Made by a program: the position numbers and the translations under genes | Shown here: positions 20,554 to 27,721 of the stretch, piece by piece | Layout: each line of letters begins with the position of its first letter | Numbering within the stretch: position 1 is the first letter of the stretch | From: Tessaracoccus aquimaris | GTDB lineage: Bacteria; Actinomycetota; Actinomycetes; Propionibacteriales; Propionibacteriaceae | Direction of reading: 5' to 3' | Length of the DNA stretch: 64,000 bases | Assembly: GCF_001997345.1 (NCBI RefSeq) | Contig: NZ_CP019606.1 | Location: 62,001-126,000, forward strand | Notes under the pieces: model-generated | Seen by the model: the letters and a program-made list of their open reading frames with translations, nothing else | Databases searched by the model: none | Told to the model about the DNA's origin: nothing

Positions 20554-21468
20554 TCACCCGCGACCGGTGTGGCGCGGGGCCAATGGTGCCGGGGCCGGGT
20601 GCGTGTTTGCGGGACGGCGGCGCGCCGCATGCGCCTGCACGGCCACCATGGAGCCGAGCACGATCGCCAGCCCGAGCCACTGGGTCGCGCCGAGGTGCTC
20701 ATGCCCGACCAGCAGTCCGACGGTCACGCCAGCAACCGGGTTGAGCAGTCCCACGACGCCAACCACCCCCGCGTCCAGGTGTGCGAGGGCCCCGAACCAG
20801 CACAGGTAGGCCACCGCGGTCGCGAGGATCGACAGGTACGCAACGGCGCCGATCTGGGGCAGGCCAAGGTGCGGGGGAGTGCCCTCGAGGAGCAGTGCCG
20901 CCACGACCAGCGCCCCTCCGCCCCACAGCAACTGCCAGCAGGTGGTGTGCAGGATGGGGATGTCGCCCTGCCAGCGCCTGGCAAGGATCGAGCCGACGCT
21001 GTTCATGGCCATCGCGCCGAGAGAGGCCGCGAGGCCCCACGGCTGAAAGTTGCCCGACCCCACACCGACAAGGAGCGGGACTCCGAGCGCGCCCAGCGCG
21101 GCCCCTGCGAGCAGCACGGCGGTCGGCCGCTGCCCGAGCAGCCCCCAGGCGCTGAGGGTCAGCGCGATCGGCGCCAGGGCCATCACCGACGACGCGACGG
21201 CGCTGGGGAGCAGTTGGGCGGCCAGGAAGATCAGCAGGAAGAACCCGCCGATGTTGAGAAGTCCGAGCAGGGCTGAGCGCCACCACCACGACCCCGAGGG
21301 CAACCGTCGAACGAAGAGGAGCAGCAGCAGCCCTGCAGGGGCGGCCCGCAGTGCAGCCCCCCAGAGCGGAGAGTCTGCGGGCATGAAGTGGGAGTTCACG
21401 AAGTAGGTGCTTCCCCACAGCACCGGAGGGATCGCCGCGATCAGCATCCAACGCAATTTACTTTCCAT
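20554..21468 (-). CDS. DMT-superfamily (EamA) transporter
   Basis: 304 residues with ten predicted helices arranged as two EamA repeats. The first repeat starts MLIAAIPPVLWGSTYFVNSHF and the second starts WGLAASLGAMAMNSVGSIL, ending VGLLNPVAGVTVGLLVGHE and LGLAIVLGSMVAVQAHA. Such proteins export amino acids, nucleotides or drugs. The start is set at ATG 21468 because a consensus TATAAT lies 7 bases upstream; an in-frame ATG at 21477 would fall inside that -10 region. It is divergent from a MarR regulator and shares its two operators, so its export substrate is probably the MarR ligand. Confidence 0.9.
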   Translation of the reverse strand: MESKLRWMLIAAIPPVLWGSTYFVNSHFMPADSPLWGAALRAAPAGLLLLLFVRRLPSGSWWWRSALLGLLNIGGFFLLIFLAAQLLPSAVASSVMALAPIALTLSAWGLLGQRPTAVLLAGAALGALGVPLLVGVGSGNFQPWGLAASLGAMAMNSVGSILARRWQGDIPILHTTCWQLLWGGGALVVAALLLEGTPPHLGLPQIGAVAYLSILATAVAYLCWFGALAHLDAGVVGVVGLLNPVAGVTVGLLVGHEHLGATQWLGLAIVLGSMVAVQAHAARRRPANTHPAPAPLAPRHTGRG

Positions 21469-21474
21469 GGAAAG
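21461..21474. promoter_or_regulatory. MarR operator 1 (perfect palindrome over the transporter start)
   Basis: CTTTCCATGGAAAG is a perfect 14-base palindrome whose central CAT is the start codon of the DMT transporter on the minus strand. Core TTTCC-AT-GGAAA. Confidence 0.65.
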
Positions 21475-21481
21475 CATTATA

Positions 21482-21493
21482 GTTTCCGAGGAA
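21482..21493. promoter_or_regulatory. MarR operator 2
   Basis: GTTTCCGAGGAA repeats the TTTCC-NN-GGAA core of operator 1, about 21 bases (two helical turns) away, and is placed between the two divergent -10 elements. Confidence 0.55.
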
Positions 21494-21495
21494 GA

Positions 21496-21501
21496 TATAC
21501 T
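21496..21501 (+). promoter_or_regulatory. -10 element of the marR promoter
   Basis: TATACT; 3 bases before ATG 21505 and 6 before the next codon, GTG 21508. The standard spacing would make the mRNA start at GTG 21508, so the first residue of the protein may be that codon. Confidence 0.5.
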
Positions 21502-21504
21502 GAA

Positions 21505-22005
21505 ATGGTGACCGATCATGTCTCTCAGATCCGCGAACAGTGGGCCCAGGAACGACCCGACCTCGACACCGAGCCGATCGCGATCGTCGGCCGCCTACAC
21601 CGCATCGGCGATCACCTCCGGGAGCGCATCGCGGTGGTGCAGGCGGAGTTCGGGCTCAACGAGGGCGAGTTCGATGTGCTCGCGACCCTGCGGCGCGCCG
21701 GGCAGCCGTTCGAGTTGTCGCCCAACGAGTTGGCGGCGTGGACGATGGTCACCAGCGGGGCGATCACCAAGCGCGTCGACAGGCTCGCGGCCGCGGGGTA
21801 TGTGGAGCGCGAGAGGGCCGCGCATGACCGCCGCGGGCGCGTCGTTCGGTTGACAGCGGAGGGCAGGGACCTGATCGATCGGGCGGTCGAGGCGCACCTC
21901 GCGAACGAGCGAGCGCTCCTTGCCCCGCTCCGAGCCTCGGAGCGCGTCCACCTGGCGGCGCTCCTCCGCGCCTGGTCTGAGGCGATCGAGAACGGCGCTG
22001 GTTGA
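21505..22005 (+). CDS. MarR-family transcriptional regulator
   Basis: 166 residues. The winged helix spans AEFGLNEGEFDVLATLRRAGQPFELSPNELAAW, the recognition helix is MVTSGAITKRVDRLAAAGYVERE, and the wing is DRRGRVVRLTAEGRDLID, the typical MarR DRR-G-R-x-V-x-LT pattern. It is divergent from a DMT exporter and two matching palindromes lie between the genes, so it very likely represses both itself and the exporter. The start may be GTG 21508 rather than ATG 21505. Its stop codon lies inside a short repeat element (22000-22015). Confidence 0.93.
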   Translation: MVTDHVSQIREQWAQERPDLDTEPIAIVGRLHRIGDHLRERIAVVQAEFGLNEGEFDVLATLRRAGQPFELSPNELAAWTMVTSGAITKRVDRLAAAGYVERERAAHDRRGRVVRLTAEGRDLIDRAVEAHLANERALLAPLRASERVHLAALLRAWSEAIENGAG

Positions 22006-22128
22006 GCCATGAAGCCCGTTGGTTGAGCCATGAAGCGGCCCGCAGCGTCGCTTCATCGGTCGAAACCCCTCGCACCCGGTGCAGGGACTGACCCCGCGTC
22101 GCTTCATCGGTCGAAACCTCTTGCACCC
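22000..22128. repeat. Paired REP-like repeat elements
   Basis: GGTTGAGCCATGAAGC occurs at 22000-22015 and again at 22021-22036. It is followed by two copies of a 33-base unit containing GCGTCGCTTCATCGGTCGAA at 22045-22077 and 22096-22128. ATGAAGCG in the first type and CGCTTCAT in the second are complementary, so the copies can fold on each other. The first copy supplies the marR stop codon. It looks like a non-coding repetitive extragenic element. Confidence 0.75.
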
Positions 22129-22183
22129 TACGAGGAAACCCGCGCCCATCGTCTGCCCCGACCGGCATCGACCCGCCCGCCGA

Positions 22184-22189
22184 TACTGT
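22184..22189 (+). promoter_or_regulatory. -10 element of leaderless promoter for the monooxygenase gene
   Basis: TACTGT is 6 bases before ATG 22196 and supports that start. Confidence 0.5.
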
Positions 22190-22195
22190 GGCCCG

Positions 22196-22465
22196 ATGAT
22201 CATCGTGGCAGGACACCTGAAGATCGCGACCGGCAGCAGGGAGGACTTCCTCGAACGGTCTCTCGACGCGATCGGGACGGCGCGAACGGCCCCCGGCTGC
22301 CTGGACTACAGCGTCTCGCCCGATCCCATCGACGTCGACCGCGTCAACGTGTGCGAGATCTGGCGCGACGCCGACGCCCTCGAGGCCTTCCGTGGCAGCG
22401 GCATCGACGATGCGCAGGGTCTGCTGGTGGTGGCGGCCGCCGTCGGCCAGTTCGACGTCAACTGA
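22196..22465 (+). CDS. Antibiotic biosynthesis monooxygenase (ABM) domain protein
   Basis: 89 residues, the normal length of a single ABM/YgiN ferredoxin-like domain. It begins MIIVAGHLKIATGSREDFLE, with ARTAPGCLDYSVSPDPID and CEIWRDADALEAFRGS matching the second and third strands and helix of the fold. Such proteins act as small cofactor-free quinol or anthrone oxygenases. The substrate is unknown. It is a lone gene ending 3 bases before the convergent end of the lipid locus. Confidence 0.85.
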   Translation: MIIVAGHLKIATGSREDFLERSLDAIGTARTAPGCLDYSVSPDPIDVDRVNVCEIWRDADALEAFRGSGIDDAQGLLVVAAAVGQFDVN

Positions 22466-22468
22466 GCC

Positions 22469-23410
22469 CTACAACTGCAGCAGCAGCGCGTTGGCCGTCA
22501 GGCCTGCGGCGGTCCCGCACAGCAGCACCCGCGAGCCTGGGCCGATCCGGCCCTCATCCAACGACCTGGCAAGCGCGAAGGGCACCGAGGCGGAGACCAT
22601 GTTGCCGAAGTCCTCGACGTAGTTGGCGTACCTGCCCTCTGGGATGCCGATCCTGCGCATGATCAGCGGCAGCGCCCGGCTCGCCTGGTGCGGGATCACG
22701 TAGTCGATCTCGTCGATCGAGACCTCAGCCCGCTCGAAGAAGCGGTCGAAGAACGCGGGCAGCACCCGTGACGCCGACAGCAGCACCGCGCGGCCGTTCA
22801 TGTCGAAGCGGTGGTCGTGGTCGGTCTCAGGCGTGTAGTCGCGCGCCGGGTAGCGGCTTCCGCCGCCGCGCAGTTCGGTCTCGTGTGCGTGCCGAGGCCA
22901 GGTCTGCTGCAGAGAGGCGACCACGCCCACGCCCGGCTCTGAGGGCGTCGAGACCACCACGGCGACCGCTGCGTCGGAGAACAGTTCGTAGCTCTCCTTC
23001 TGCTCCGGGTTGAGGAACTGGGCGCCGACGTCGCCGGAGACGATCAGGATCCGTCGGTAGTCGCCGTCGCGCAGGTACCTCGACGCGACGTCGAGGGCGG
23101 TGATGAAACTCGTGCAGGTGGAGTTGACGTCGAGCGCCGCGCACCGCGCGTCGGGGGCGACCTGCTCCTGCACGAGCGCCGCGGTGCAGGGGATCGGCTG
23201 CACGTCGCTTGCTGTCGCGCCGAGCACGCAGTCGATGTCGTCGGGACCGACGCCCGCGGCAGAGAGGGCCTTGCCCGCCGCCTCAACGAGCATTCCCAGG
23301 TGCTGCGACGGGGCGTCGGCGCGGTATCTGGTCACCGATCCGAAGGTGACCCTCCGGCTTGGCAGGACGACGCCGTAGCCGTCGATCTGGAGTCCGCGGA
23401 CAGCGGTCAT
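22469..23410 (-). CDS. KAS III / OleA-like condensing enzyme
   Basis: 313 residues of thiolase fold. It begins VRGLQIDGYGVVLPSRRVTF; the acylated cysteine is Cys99 in DVNSTCTSFITALDVA; the catalytic His is in VIPHQASRALPL and the Asn in VEDFGNMVSASVPFALA. The full Cys-His-Asn triad means it can condense acyl thioesters. It is shorter and more diverged than housekeeping FabH and lacks any ACP or fatty-acid gene next to it. Last gene of a four-gene operon (SDR, MBL, adenylating enzyme, this), starting one base after the preceding stop. In this context it resembles the OleA role, condensing two acyl chains, but that is inference. Confidence 0.87.
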   Translation of the reverse strand: MTAVRGLQIDGYGVVLPSRRVTFGSVTRYRADAPSQHLGMLVEAAGKALSAAGVGPDDIDCVLGATASDVQPIPCTAALVQEQVAPDARCAALDVNSTCTSFITALDVASRYLRDGDYRRILIVSGDVGAQFLNPEQKESYELFSDAAVAVVVSTPSEPGVGVVASLQQTWPRHAHETELRGGGSRYPARDYTPETDHDHRFDMNGRAVLLSASRVLPAFFDRFFERAEVSIDEIDYVIPHQASRALPLIMRRIGIPEGRYANYVEDFGNMVSASVPFALARSLDEGRIGPGSRVLLCGTAAGLTANALLLQL

Positions 23411-23411
23411 A

Positions 23412-24680
23412 TCAAAGCCTCTCCACCCGGCGCAGTTTGCGCGTCGGGTCGTGCAGATAGGGCTGGAAGTCGAACGTGACGCCTTCCGCGCCCTGAGCCT
23501 CCAGCAGTGCCGCCAGTTCCGTGGTCACAGACTCGACGACATGCGGCGAAAGTGGCTCAAGGTGAATGCGCAGCAGGCGCGGCGAAGCCTGGACGACCCG
23601 GTACTCCTCGACGCCGTCGGCATAGACCACCGCCCGGGCGACCAGGTCCGGATAGACGGACACGACCCCACCCTCACCTGAGGCGAGATGGAGGACGTCG
23701 TCCTCGCGGCCCTCGATCCGCTCCAGCGCCGTGAACACGCTCCCGCATGGGCACGGGTCGTCGCGCAGCAAGAGGACGTCGCCCATCCGGTAGCGCACGA
23801 TCGGCTGCGTGCGGCGCATGAAGTCGGTCACGATCGGCACGAACCTGCGCTCGTCGAGGTGCTCGCGCTCGACGAGCACGACGTCCTCGTTGAGGTGCAG
23901 CGTGCCGTGCTCGCAGGTGCAGCCGAGGAACCCCTCTGTGCACTGGTAGATCTGGTGGATCACCCCGACGCCGAGGCCCTCCCGGAGCCGCGCCTCGTCG
24001 AGCGGGGTGAGCACCTCGGCGACCGAGTACACCTTCTCGGGGGCGATCCTCAGCCTGCCTGCCGAGACCTCGTCGGCGATGCCGCGCAGCACCGACGGCG
24101 GGCCGACAAGCACCGTCGGCGACAGCCCTTCCAGTCTCGCGAGGTGCTGCTCGACCGGCTCGAAGGTGTCGAAGTACTCGAACCGGACGGCGCGCGAGCC
24201 GACGGTGTCGTACAGGTCGCCTCCCGCCCGCAGGAACAGCGCGATCCGTTGCCCCCGGAGGTGGGGGAGGGTCTTGGCGAGCATGGTGCCAGCCCATTGG
24301 GCGCGCTCCGTCGCGCTGGTGAGGAACATGCCGCGGTGCCCGCTGGTGCCCGACGACAGCCCGATCGAGCAGCCGCCGAGGGTGGCGTCGAAACGGCGGG
24401 TCCGTTCGGCCTCGATGGCGAGCGCCAGCGCCTCATCGCGGTCGACGTCGACCGTCACGAGGTCGTCGAAGTCGGCCATCATGGTGCGCTTGTCCATCAG
24501 CGGCAGTTCAGCGAACGGCCGGGGCAGCAGCCGCGCGTACCAGGGCGATCGACGGGCAAGGAAGCGAAGGTGTTTCGCGACGCGTCGGCGCTGGTACCGC
24601 TCCAGCGCCGCCCGGTCGCGGAAGCGGAGCAGCCTGGTGCGGGCGTACCAGGCGGCGATCCGGAGTGTGTCGGCGCTCAT
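23412..24680 (-). CDS. Adenylate-forming enzyme, F390 synthetase/PaaK-like
   Basis: 422 residues. The N-terminal helical part (RFRDRAALERYQRRRVAKHLRF, ARRSPWYARLL) resembles coenzyme F390 synthetase and phenylacetate-CoA ligase relatives. The ATP loop is SSGTSGHRG, the adenine motif YQCTEGFLG, the later motif YRMGD followed by CPCGS, and EGREDDVLHL the ribose-binding GR-D pattern; a Lys near the end (DPTRKLRRVERL) could be the catalytic lysine. It should adenylate a carboxylic acid, possibly passing it to CoA or cyclising a hydroxy acid. Its ATG overlaps the MBL gene stop (ATGA). Substrate unknown; this subgroup is poorly characterised. Confidence 0.85.
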   Translation of the reverse strand: MSADTLRIAAWYARTRLLRFRDRAALERYQRRRVAKHLRFLARRSPWYARLLPRPFAELPLMDKRTMMADFDDLVTVDVDRDEALALAIEAERTRRFDATLGGCSIGLSSGTSGHRGMFLTSATERAQWAGTMLAKTLPHLRGQRIALFLRAGGDLYDTVGSRAVRFEYFDTFEPVEQHLARLEGLSPTVLVGPPSVLRGIADEVSAGRLRIAPEKVYSVAEVLTPLDEARLREGLGVGVIHQIYQCTEGFLGCTCEHGTLHLNEDVVLVEREHLDERRFVPIVTDFMRRTQPIVRYRMGDVLLLRDDPCPCGSVFTALERIEGREDDVLHLASGEGGVVSVYPDLVARAVVYADGVEEYRVVQASPRLLRIHLEPLSPHVVESVTTELAALLEAQGAEGVTFDFQPYLHDPTRKLRRVERL

Positions 24681-25492
24681 GGCAGGAGCCGCGCCCCGTC
24701 GTAGCGGTCGTGGCTGAGGCAGATCCGCAGCCCGGCCGCCTCGGCCTCGCGCAGCCCGAGCGCTGTCGCCTGGTAGGCCCGCCGGTCGTGCTGGATGAAG
24801 CCGGGCAGGGGGCGAAGAGACGCGGTGCGCTCGATCAGGTCGGAGCCCCACGCGGCGTCCCCTGCGAGCAGCACCCGCTCCTCGACGACGGCGCCAAGAT
24901 GCCCGCGGGCGTGGCCCGGCAGCGGGGTGAGCAGGTAGGTTCCGTCGCCGAGCAGGTCGTGCGCCGACAGGTCGAGGCCCCGAACCGTCGTCGGGGAGAG
25001 GTCTGCCGCGGTCAGCACGGTGCGCTTGGCGGAGGCGAACCAGTCGGGCAGCAGCGCCCTCAGGACGCCCTCCTTCAGGCGCGGCGACGCGAGGGTCTCG
25101 GCGATCCCTGCCGACATCACGAACGTGGCCGCTGGGAAGTGACGGACGCCGCCGATGTGGTCGGGGTGGGCGTGCGACAGGACGACGTGCGTGACGTCGT
25201 CGGGGGAGAGGCCCGCGGCGCGCAGGCGCGCGTCGATCGTGTCGCCCGGACCCACCGTTGGAGGCAGCAGCCTGCTGTAGAGCCGTCCAGGGAGCCCTGC
25301 GGCGGCGGTGTCGGGGGCGTAGCCGGTGTCGAACAGCACGACGGCGCCCGAGGGGGATTGGTACAGGAAGGCCCCCGCAGGGAAGGTGCGGGTCTCGGCG
25401 AGGGCTCCGCGGAACAGTAGCGCCAGGTCGTGGCTGGTGCTCCCGCACGCGAAGTAGTCCAGCGTCCCGGCGGCTCGGCGTGGGGAACTCAA
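24677..25492 (-). CDS. Metallo-beta-lactamase-fold hydrolase (lactonase-like)
   Basis: 271 residues. The metal-binding motif is SHAHPDHIGG, the third His lies in PLPGHARGHLG, the bridging Asp in VLLAGDAAW, and a last His in CLSHDRYDG, so both metal sites look intact. The layout is like the AHL-lactonase/hydrolase branch of the fold. The start is a TTG 2 bases after the SDR stop, supported by GGAGG 8 bases upstream; no in-frame ATG occurs before the first strand. It is coupled to the next gene by an ATGA overlap. In an Ole-like scheme it would take the place of OleB, acting on a lactone or ester; this is inference. Confidence 0.88.
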   Translation of the reverse strand: MSSPRRAAGTLDYFACGSTSHDLALLFRGALAETRTFPAGAFLYQSPSGAVVLFDTGYAPDTAAAGLPGRLYSRLLPPTVGPGDTIDARLRAAGLSPDDVTHVVLSHAHPDHIGGVRHFPAATFVMSAGIAETLASPRLKEGVLRALLPDWFASAKRTVLTAADLSPTTVRGLDLSAHDLLGDGTYLLTPLPGHARGHLGAVVEERVLLAGDAAWGSDLIERTASLRPLPGFIQHDRRAYQATALGLREAEAAGLRICLSHDRYDGARLLP

Positions 25493-25494
25493 CG

Positions 25495-26472
25495 TCAGGC
25501 CCTCCGCTGGGTCGCTGCGAACGCCGCCAGCGCGTCGTCGAGGGAAACGAGCGGACGGTAGCCGAGGTCGGCGCGCGCCCGGGCGATGTCGAGCGTCTGT
25601 GAGAACGCGATCGTGGTGAGCGTGTAGCGCGTCACGGGCGGCTCGGGGTGCCCTGGCAGCACCGAGCAGACGCCCTCGAGGGCACCGGCGAGCGGGTACA
25701 AGGCTCGGATCGACGCGCGGCGGTAGCGCGGCGTCTCGCCGAGGAGCCCCAGTAGGCGGTCGAGCAGGTCCTTGAACGGGCGGGGGTCGTCGTTGGTGAT
25801 GTTGTAGGCCTGCCCGTGCGCGTCCGGATGCTCGACGGCGAGCCTCAGCGCCGTGGCGACGTTCTCGACGGCGGTCAGGTCGACGAGGTTGCGGCCGCCC
25901 CGGAACAGGGGAATCCCGACGCGGCGGTGCACCTTCAGCAGCCTCGGGGCGAGGCTCGGGTCGCCCGCGCCGATCAGGCCGCGGGGCCGCAGTGTGATCA
26001 ACTCCGCGATGTCGTCTCGCTCAAGCGCCGCGGTCAGCAGCGCCTCTGCCCGGATCTTCGACGCGATGTAGTGGTTGAGCCGGTTGGTGACGTCGACCTC
26101 GTCCTCGGTGATGCCGAGCCGGTCGCCGAACGCGGCGTACACGCTGGGCGATGAGACGTTGACGATCCGTCGGATGCCGCGCCGGCGCGCCGCCTCGATG
26201 ACCGCGGCGGTGCCGTCCACGTTGGCCTCGCGGAAGTCGGCCCAGCGTCCCCACGGCGACGAGAGGGCCGCGCAGTGCACGATCGCGTCGAGCCCCTCTG
26301 GCGCGGCGGCTGGAAGGTCGGACAGCGCGGCCGGGAGCGTCGCTGTGCCGAGCGGTTCGAGTTTGGCCTTGTCGCGGCCGCTCGCCAGCACGTCGTGGCC
26401 GCCCGCGAGCAACTCGGCGACCACGCGGCCGCCCAGGAACCCGGAAGCGCCGGTGACTAGGACGTGAGACAC
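25495..26472 (-). CDS. NAD(P)-dependent epimerase/dehydratase-family SDR (3beta-HSD/OleD-like)
   Basis: 325 residues from GTG 26472. The Rossmann motif VTGASGFLGG sits directly at the N-terminus, the acidic residue region is SGRDKAKLEPLG, and HCAALSSPWGRWADFREANV is the third strand. The active site shows Ser (NVSSPSVY) and a Tyr before VASKIRAEALL-type sequence read here as HYIASKIRAEALLTAAL, giving the YxxxK-like motif with Tyr-Ile-Ala-Ser-Lys. Such extended SDRs include 3beta-HSD and OleD, which reduces 2-alkyl-3-oxoacids. GTG 26472 is preferred over ATG 26484 because a TATGCT -10 box lies 7 bases before it and the fold starts at once. First gene of the operon. Confidence 0.87.
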   Translation of the reverse strand: MSHVLVTGASGFLGGRVVAELLAGGHDVLASGRDKAKLEPLGTATLPAALSDLPAAAPEGLDAIVHCAALSSPWGRWADFREANVDGTAAVIEAARRRGIRRIVNVSSPSVYAAFGDRLGITEDEVDVTNRLNHYIASKIRAEALLTAALERDDIAELITLRPRGLIGAGDPSLAPRLLKVHRRVGIPLFRGGRNLVDLTAVENVATALRLAVEHPDAHGQAYNITNDDPRPFKDLLDRLLGLLGETPRYRRASIRALYPLAGALEGVCSVLPGHPEPPVTRYTLTTIAFSQTLDIARARADLGYRPLVSLDDALAAFAATQRRA

Positions 26473-26479
26473 GCCCGAC

Positions 26480-26509
26480 AGCATAAACCTGGTAGGCCAC
26501 TACTACACT
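26480..26509. promoter_or_regulatory. Divergent leaderless promoters of the lipid locus
   Basis: Minus-strand -10 TATGCT (26485-26480) is 7 bases before GTG 26472 of the SDR gene. Plus-strand -10 TACACT (26504-26509) is 6 bases before GTG 26516 of the glycosyltransferase. Only 43 bases separate the two start codons, so the two promoters overlap and are likely to be co-regulated. Confidence 0.55.
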
Positions 26510-26515
26510 CAACCC

Positions 26516-27721
26516 GTGCGAATCGCGATGGTCACCGACTACTACCTGCCGACGCTCGGCGGGGTTCAGACCCTCGTCAAGGCCCACAAGGAGGCCCTCG
26601 AGGACGCTGGCCACGAGGTCATCGTCGCGTGCCCATTGGTGGCACCGTCGGCCGATGACACGGTGGTCGCGCTGCCAGCGTCGGCCCTCTTCGCGCCAGA
26701 CGGCTACCCCTTCACCTGGCCCTACGGTCGGACGGCGGACGTGCTGCGCGGCGCGCTGTCGGGCGCGGACGTGGTCCATGTGCACAGCGAACTGATCGGG
26801 GCGATCGCCGGGCTGAGGGTGGCGCGGGACCTTGGCATCCCCACCGTGCAGACGATGCACGGCCGCGTCGACGTGTACACGGCGAAGGTGCTCCCGCTGC
26901 CTTCCATCTCCAGCATCCCGCTCGCCTGGCTGCACCGCCGCCGGATCCCGCACGTGGCGCCGATCTCGGGCGGGCAGCGCTACACGTCGACCCGACTGGC
27001 TCGACGGATGTGGCGGCTGATGGTCAACCAGGCCAACTTCGCCGACCACGTCATCGTCCCCTCCGAGCACTTCGCGGGAAAGTTGGCGGGGCAGGGCGTC
27101 GTCACGCCCATGACGGTGCTGTCGAACGGGCTGGAGGGCTCGGTGCTCGCGCAGGTCACGGGCGCACGGGCGCGGCGCCCCGACGGCGGGCTGCGCGTGA
27201 TGTGGTGCGGCAGGGTCTCGCCCGAGAAGCGGCCCGAGGTGTTCGTCGAGGCCATGGCGGCGCTTCCCGACTCCGTCACCGCCGACATGTACGGAGAGGG
27301 CCTCGCGCTCGCCGCGACCGGGCGACTCGTGCGCAGGCTCGGGCTGGAGGGCCGCGTCCGCCTGCACGGCGCCGTCCCGCGGGAGGCCGTGCTCCGCGCG
27401 GCGCTCGAGCACGACGTGTTCGTCTCCACGTCCTACGACTTCGACAACCAGCCCATGGTCATCCTGGAGGCCATCGCGAGCGCGCTGCCCGTGGTGATCT
27501 CTGACCCCGACCTTGCCGAGTTCATCCCCGCGGGCGGCGTCGAGGTGACGCGCGAACCGTCGGCCGCCTCCCTGGCGGCGACCCTGGCGCGGCTCGCCGA
27601 CGACCCGGCCCGCGTCACCGCGATGAGCGAGGCGATGGCCGACGGTGCCGACGGGGCCGCGCAGCGCACGCACCTGAGCGGGCTGCTCGGGGTCTACGAG
27701 TCGCTGACCGGGGCCGGATGA
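26516..27721 (+). CDS. GT4-family glycosyltransferase
   Basis: 401 residues, GT-B fold. It begins MRIAMVTDYYLPTLGGVQT, with the GGV glycine loop of GT4 enzymes. DVVHVHSELIGAIAGLRVA and TVQTMHGRVDVYT follow in the acceptor domain, and the C-terminal donor domain has RVSPEKRPEVFVEAMAAL, VRLHGAVPREAVLRAA and the E-x7-E-like nucleotide-sugar region STSYDFDNQPMVILEAIASA. Relatives include PimB-type mannosyltransferases and diacylglycerol glucosyltransferases acting at the inner membrane face. It shares a 43-base divergent promoter with the SDR-MBL-ligase-KAS operon, suggesting it glycosylates that lipid product or a related lipid. Confidence 0.88.
   Translation: MRIAMVTDYYLPTLGGVQTLVKAHKEALEDAGHEVIVACPLVAPSADDTVVALPASALFAPDGYPFTWPYGRTADVLRGALSGADVVHVHSELIGAIAGLRVARDLGIPTVQTMHGRVDVYTAKVLPLPSISSIPLAWLHRRRIPHVAPISGGQRYTSTRLARRMWRLMVNQANFADHVIVPSEHFAGKLAGQGVVTPMTVLSNGLEGSVLAQVTGARARRPDGGLRVMWCGRVSPEKRPEVFVEAMAALPDSVTADMYGEGLALAATGRLVRRLGLEGRVRLHGAVPREAVLRAALEHDVFVSTSYDFDNQPMVILEAIASALPVVISDPDLAEFIPAGGVEVTREPSAASLAATLARLADDPARVTAMSEAMADGADGAAQRTHLSGLLGVYESLTGAG

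Follow-up and report, generated by a model that had tools for sequence, protein, structure and literature searches.

A five-gene locus in Tessaracoccus aquimaris contains a four-gene core that is conserved as a unit across nine named bacterial phyla, together with a divergent glycosyltransferase gene whose counterparts in other bacteria are exchanged by clade. The locus lies at positions 22469 to 27721 of a 64,000-nucleotide stretch (contig NZ_CP019606.1, positions 62,001 to 126,000; the window) of a genome that consists of a single contig of 3.93 Mb. We propose that the four genes, all on the minus strand, are the actinobacterial version of the core and that the divergent glycosyltransferase gene is a head-group module. 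Judging from sequence, it is very likely that the locus specifies a dedicated lipid or glycolipid pathway. The explanation that we favor overall, with about even confidence, is a widespread modular lipid core that would join, reduce and activate acyl chains, combined with a clade-specific head group, here a sugar. The core probably builds an undescribed kind of lipid that would be sugar-capped in this organism.

The core genes encode a condensing enzyme of the beta-ketoacyl-acyl carrier protein synthase III family (KAS; 22469..23410, 313 amino acids), a PaaK-fold adenylating enzyme (ADEN; 23412..24680, 422 amino acids), a metallo-beta-lactamase-fold hydrolase that resembles acyl-homoserine lactone (AHL) lactonases (MBL; 24677..25492, 271 amino acids counted from a TTG start), and an extended short-chain dehydrogenase/reductase (SDR; 25495..26484, 329 amino acids). 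The gaps between KAS and ADEN, ADEN and MBL, and MBL and SDR are +1, -4 and +2 bases. The glycosyltransferase, of family GT4, is encoded on the plus strand (26516..27721, 401 amino acids). All five tightly spaced genes were found where the original prediction had placed them, and family scans confirmed their assignments.

We analyzed the conservation of the core in 85 ADEN-bearing loci: 80 from a scan of 84,980 species genomes, in which the best 80 of 564 ADEN relatives were taken as loci, and five from further genomes. All four core genes were detected by tblastn in 77 of the 85, always on the same strand; these cores extend over 3.5 to 9.3 kb, the median being 4.1 kb. These 77 include two loci with genes cut by contig ends (L077, L078) and one with short matches for SDR and MBL (L095). 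The other eight (L056, L086, L099, L100, L110, L112, L133, L136) did not have the full core, and two of them (L056, L100) are short contigs. Because 77 of 85 loci hold the four genes together on one strand, the clustering is far beyond chance. The core genes thus stay together in other genomes, as the original prediction required, and do so in Actinomycetota, Bacillota, Cyanobacteriota, Pseudomonadota, Fusobacteriota, Campylobacterota, Mycoplasmatota, Bdellovibrionota and Saccharimonadota, several of which are represented here by metagenome-assembled genomes only.

Two gene orders prevail: SDR-MBL-ADEN-KAS, which is usual in Actinomycetota, Streptococcus, Enterococcus, Lachnospiraceae, Acholeplasma and further groups, and KAS-x-SDR-MBL-ADEN, which is usual in Paenibacillus, Brevibacillus and Bacillus and in which x is an interval of 1.1-1.6 kb that mostly holds an ATP-grasp gene; L054 and L131 differ from both arrangements. 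Neighboring core genes are mostly separated by almost no gap, although L084, L096, L114, L126 and L135, among others, deviate from this. Close to the window organism, a protein above the cut-off of TIGR02304, the NCBIfam family of ADEN, was found in three of 35 other genomes of the genus, and among 396 sampled genomes of the phylum only the window's own exceeds it, which makes for a patchy distribution of the family among relatives of the window organism. Another species of the genus (genome G009, locus L055) has a second, divergent core, about 33-43% identical and on a long branch. In the related genome G020, KAS has a shifted reading frame when compared with its homologues (L053:10432-11475), and no GT4 gene was found in the 20 kb examined. 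The neighbors purB, MarR and EamA are common to this locus and that of the window, and the joint decay of KAS and GT4 fits a single product.

The active site of KAS is intact. In an alignment of 85 sequences (the window, 77 loci and seven from plasmid or E. coli records), the catalytic Cys, His and Asn are kept in 85, 85 and 84, respectively, the exception at Asn being taken to be the frame-shifted L053. The predicted triad of the window protein is present as Cys99-His241-Asn270. We rejected the identification of KAS as OleA, the condensing enzyme of the OleABCD pathway. Glu117 is described in a passage of PMC7064751 as essential in OleA and as absent from only two of the OleA proteins aligned there. 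The equivalent position, before a Pro and 26 residues ahead of the catalytic Cys, is Ile in the window protein (Ile73-Pro74) and is Ile in 74, Leu in 11 and Glu in none of the 85 KAS, compared with Glu in all three OleA-like references. Both of our trees also place KAS outside the OleA references. OleD-like regions served as the source of these references, and two of the five (L144, L146) gave no KAS match. On PRK09258 the window KAS scored 86.5 bits against a cut-off of 285; we took this NCBIfam model to be the one containing OleA, given the score of 419.6 reached by the ole-locus reference L148.

KAS instead groups with MxnB and CorB, the stand-alone ketosynthases of myxopyronin and corallopyronin synthesis, and not with FabH (98/95 and 94/98 in the two trees). 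MxnB and CorB are its closest solved relatives by profile and tree, and MxnB also by structure. They share with it a Q-x-[ILV]-P motif and a GGGS-type insert, and Q71, P74 and G183 are present in all 85 KAS. A passage of PMC5724707 describes MxnB as joining two carrier-bound acyl chains that are supplied by type I polyketide synthase assembly lines; unlike in that system, no polyketide synthase was identified among the cassette neighbors examined, many of which are unassigned. From these sequence relationships, a two-chain joining step by KAS is quite possible, though we put it somewhat below an even chance.

The main rival, which we consider somewhat unlikely, is a single-chain route. In this route a FabH-like KAS would use malonyl-acyl carrier protein to make a 3-oxoacyl chain, MBL would act as a thioesterase, SDR would yield the 3-hydroxy acid, and ADEN would re-activate it for attachment of a head group, giving here a glycosylated hydroxy fatty acid. 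The Cys-His-Asn triad is that of FabH, and the best NCBIfam models for KAS are KAS III models of the FabH type. The NCBIfam model PRK07204 ('beta-ketoacyl-ACP synthase III') holds the KAS of a Bacillus cassette (L117; 495.9 bits, cut-off 402); the window KAS differs, scoring 247.7 and having no N-terminal loop of the kind that carries Trp32 and Arg36 in E. coli FabH. A gene for an acyl carrier protein (ACP)-like protein adjoins KAS in five of the 85 loci, and one of the five, L085, has a run of ACP, acetyl-CoA carboxyltransferase-like, acyltransferase and FabF-family genes. The grouping with MxnB and CorB argues against this route, as does the lack of the Trp32 loop from 40 of the 85 KAS. In addition, housekeeping fatty-acid synthesis already yields 3-hydroxyacyl chains, so a separate single-chain pathway would need some other purpose. 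Elsewhere in the host genome, at 1.00 Mb, lies a FabH-ACP-FabF cluster (FabH and ACP above their cut-offs, FabF at 461.3 against 493.75), and the cassette KAS is therefore a second KAS.

The other core enzymes also retain their conserved residues, as assessed in alignments of 32 to 37 chosen members each. The window ADEN passes TIGR02304 ('F390 synthetase-related protein') with 466.5 bits against a cut-off of 251.9, and its E. coli counterpart scores 755.5; the family name carries no function and implies no role in F390 synthesis. Its best matches in sequence and structure are PaaK-family ligases, in agreement with the predicted PaaK/F390-like enzyme. No OleC was among the matches listed in the structure search, a result that excludes nothing about OleC; the compared set may not have contained an OleC structure. 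ADEN residues G107, S109, G111, T112, D301, R325 and K415 are invariant in 37 of 37 members. In MBL, the metal-ligand positions H107, H109, D111, H112, H194, D212 and H261 are invariant in 34 of 34, matching the AHL lactonase motif, HxHxDH followed by His, Asp and His ligands. MBL matches AHL lactonase models and structures, its top structure being named only as a Zn-dependent hydrolase, and it scores 72.1 bits on the AttM model, below the cut-off of 390. For SDR, the best NCBIfam model is OleD (2-alkyl-3-oxoalkanoate reductase), at 196.3 bits; this is below the cut-off of 580, which was passed by none of 246 sampled genomes of the class. OleD models were matched by all 32 SDR members scanned, and S111, Y139 and K143 are invariant in 32 of 32. 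These invariant residues belong to the catalytic motifs of the three enzymes.

These assignments bear on the original prediction of an Ole-type pathway. In that explanation, which we now regard as improbable, ADEN would close a beta-lactone as OleC does and MBL, in the place of OleB, would act on the lactone. The cassette and OleABCD have the same four kinds of enzyme: a thiolase-superfamily condensing enzyme, an adenylate-forming enzyme, a hydrolase and an OleD-like SDR. This part of the prediction stands, as does the kinship of the SDR to OleD, and the AHL lactonase matches of MBL are consistent with a lactone substrate. The equation of KAS with OleA fails on the residue at the Glu117 position and on the trees. 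Moreover, the adenylating enzyme is PaaK-fold by both sequence and structure, and the hydrolase has the MBL fold, in contrast to the alpha/beta hydrolase OleB. One ole locus also has a glycosyltransferase, according to a passage of PMC7064751.

We compared the partner genes within 6.5 kb of ADEN in the 85 loci, using hidden Markov models (HMMs) that cover only the partner families seen here. A glycosyltransferase was found in 38 loci, 36 by HMM and two cut by contig ends (L069, L077) by tblastn. An ATP-grasp partner, a FemAB-like (GNAT) partner, or both were found in 35, none of which is in the glycosyltransferase set. Neither type was found in 12 (L053, L055, L056, L064, L071, L081, L084, L085, L089, L131, L133, L136); an ATP-grasp-family gene of L084 and a glycosyltransferase-family gene of L081 are beyond 6.5 kb or outside the scored open reading frames. 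On a tree of ADEN, partner labels were strongly clustered, requiring 13 changes compared to a shuffled mean of 33.5, and none of 200 shuffles gave a number as low. This tree was made by a short search with 76 rows and labels that we assigned, and excludes 16 near-duplicate, partial or aberrant loci.

The glycosyltransferases near the core are of three kinds: GT4, GT1/UDPGT-like and GT21. GT4 is the divergent neighbor in most actinobacterial cassettes examined. In all 19 actinobacterial loci in which both genes were called, GT4 diverges from SDR across a gap of 23-101 bases; L053 lacks GT4. In a Fusobacterium record, a GT21 gene lies about 0.6 kb upstream of SDR. A divergent pair of genes for a TetR regulator and a sulfotransferase was found in Ketogulonicigenium and Paracoccus, and was checked with Pfam in the former only. 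The same GT1-like and GT21 pair was seen beside the core in L062, L068, L112 and L054, loci that come from Enterococcus, from a cyanobacterium and from an actinobacterium of the same order as the window organism.

The partner genes and the SDR scores also bear on whether this is a locus for a head group or surface polysaccharide, with SDR a sugar epimerase, GT4 building the polysaccharide and the remaining enzymes adding acyl decoration to the sugar. Polysaccharide loci often contain extended SDRs and GT4 enzymes, and SDR does match epimerase models, more weakly. However, the OleD model gives twice the score of the next-best other family, HpnA (196 and 98 bits), no glycosyltransferase of the families seen here was found near the core in 47 of the 85 loci, and no sugar-nucleotide or polymerase gene was among the recurring neighbor families that could be identified, many others, those confined to Microbacterium among them, being unassigned. 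On these grounds we think a polysaccharide locus very improbable.

A different set of partners is found in E. coli. In strain CFT073, a seven-gene island, KAS-SDR-MBL-ADEN-PAP2-FA_hydroxylase-FA_desaturase (L156:4001-10882), lies between narI and rttR/tRNA-Tyr, beginning 111 bases downstream of narI and in the same direction. In K-12 the interval from narI to tRNA-Tyr contains ychS, rttR and tpr instead. Of 5426 complete E. coli genomes, 672 (about one in eight) carry the cluster, and in 671 the match covers 80% or more of it. A search of 72,556 plasmid records with ADEN gave matches in 50 (E up to 1e-20), and tblastn revealed a compact core in eight of the ten plasmid-collection loci that were opened (L149, L151-L155, L158, L159).

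Because the partners include glycosyltransferases, ACP and FabF, a fatty-acid hydroxylase and a desaturase, the reading of the locus as a lipid or glycolipid pathway, which the original prediction had raised, is well supported. In the modular pathway that we favor, KAS, as a relative of MxnB and CorB, would fuse two ACP-carried acyl chains, one or both of which would probably be beta-keto chains. MBL would free the product as an acid, or open a lactone, and the OleD-like SDR would convert the beta-keto group to a beta-hydroxyl. ADEN would then activate the carboxyl group as an acyl-adenylate and pass the product on, and GT4 would put a sugar on the lipid.

Several observations weigh against this pathway. 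The 80 loci from the species genomes are the best ADEN matches of 564 and not a random sample. A glycosyltransferase is not universal, 35 of the 85 loci having ATP-grasp or GNAT partners instead and 12 neither. The placement of KAS relies on few references (two or three OleA and three FabH per tree); the first tree has long branches and an unsettled bootstrap, and the 94/98 of the second is not a starred branch. A placement of MxnB and CorB with FabH is rejected by no more than a narrow margin (p-AU 0.048), and Foldseek puts S. aureus FabH first, by a hair's breadth. The ACP, carboxyltransferase and FabF of L085 would equally fit an ordinary malonyl-using KAS. Finally, two Pseudomonas megaplasmids hold ADEN and an ATP-grasp homologue but no compact core, so ADEN may act alone there and have a role outside the cassette. 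By tblastn, the sole core gene of P. amygdali pMPPla107 (L157) is ADEN, which has the ATP-grasp homologue close by, and Pseudomonas Leaf58 (L150) has core genes spread across 10 kb.

A further proposal, which we consider rather unlikely, is that the core represents a third way, in addition to the sphingolipid and mycolate pathways, of making two-chain lipids that bear a beta-hydroxyl adjacent to a branch point. An MxnB-type ketosynthase would fuse two ACP-bound chains, and reduction, activation and addition of a clade-specific head group (sugar, sulfate or amino acid) would follow; MxnB and CorB of the myxobacterial antibiotics would have been recruited from the cassette KAS family. The partners GT21, fatty-acid hydroxylase, desaturase, PAP2 phosphatase and sulfotransferase resemble sphingolipid finishing enzymes.

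If the core does build a lipid, a common class of bacterial lipid, with a core of conserved catalytic residues in nine named phyla and in roughly an eighth of the complete E. coli genomes, would be undescribed. Its exchangeable sugar, amino-acid-type and sulfate modules would be a natural toolkit, and the KAS family would tie the cassette to myxopyronin and corallopyronin chemistry.

No description of the cassette was found among the papers listed in searches of an open-access collection; subscription papers were outside this search, which is thus no proof of novelty. A passage of PMC2649909 mentions an F390 synthetase within a fatty-acid gene cluster of D. psychrophila, and a table of PMC9823363 lists a transposon mutant of a 'Coenzyme F390 synthetase'; neither passage describes the cassette.

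The region between SDR and GT4 (26485..26515) has 31 bases if SDR starts at the ATG at 26484. The 43 bases of the original prediction hold if it starts at the alternative GTG at 26472. Two -10 elements had been predicted here, and a consensus scan of 26300-26700 gave no sigma-70-like sites; a TACACT six bases ahead of the GT4 GTG was spotted by eye only. Beyond KAS, window positions 20554-22465 encode an EamA transporter, a MarR-type regulator and a protein with the antibiotic-biosynthesis-monooxygenase fold, and relatives of all three lie near the G020 cassette. A search of a phage collection with SDR (E 1e-20) gave one match, ON470620.1:3402-4346, in a record named Escherichia phage vB_EcoM-813R9, which is possibly misassigned bacterial DNA.

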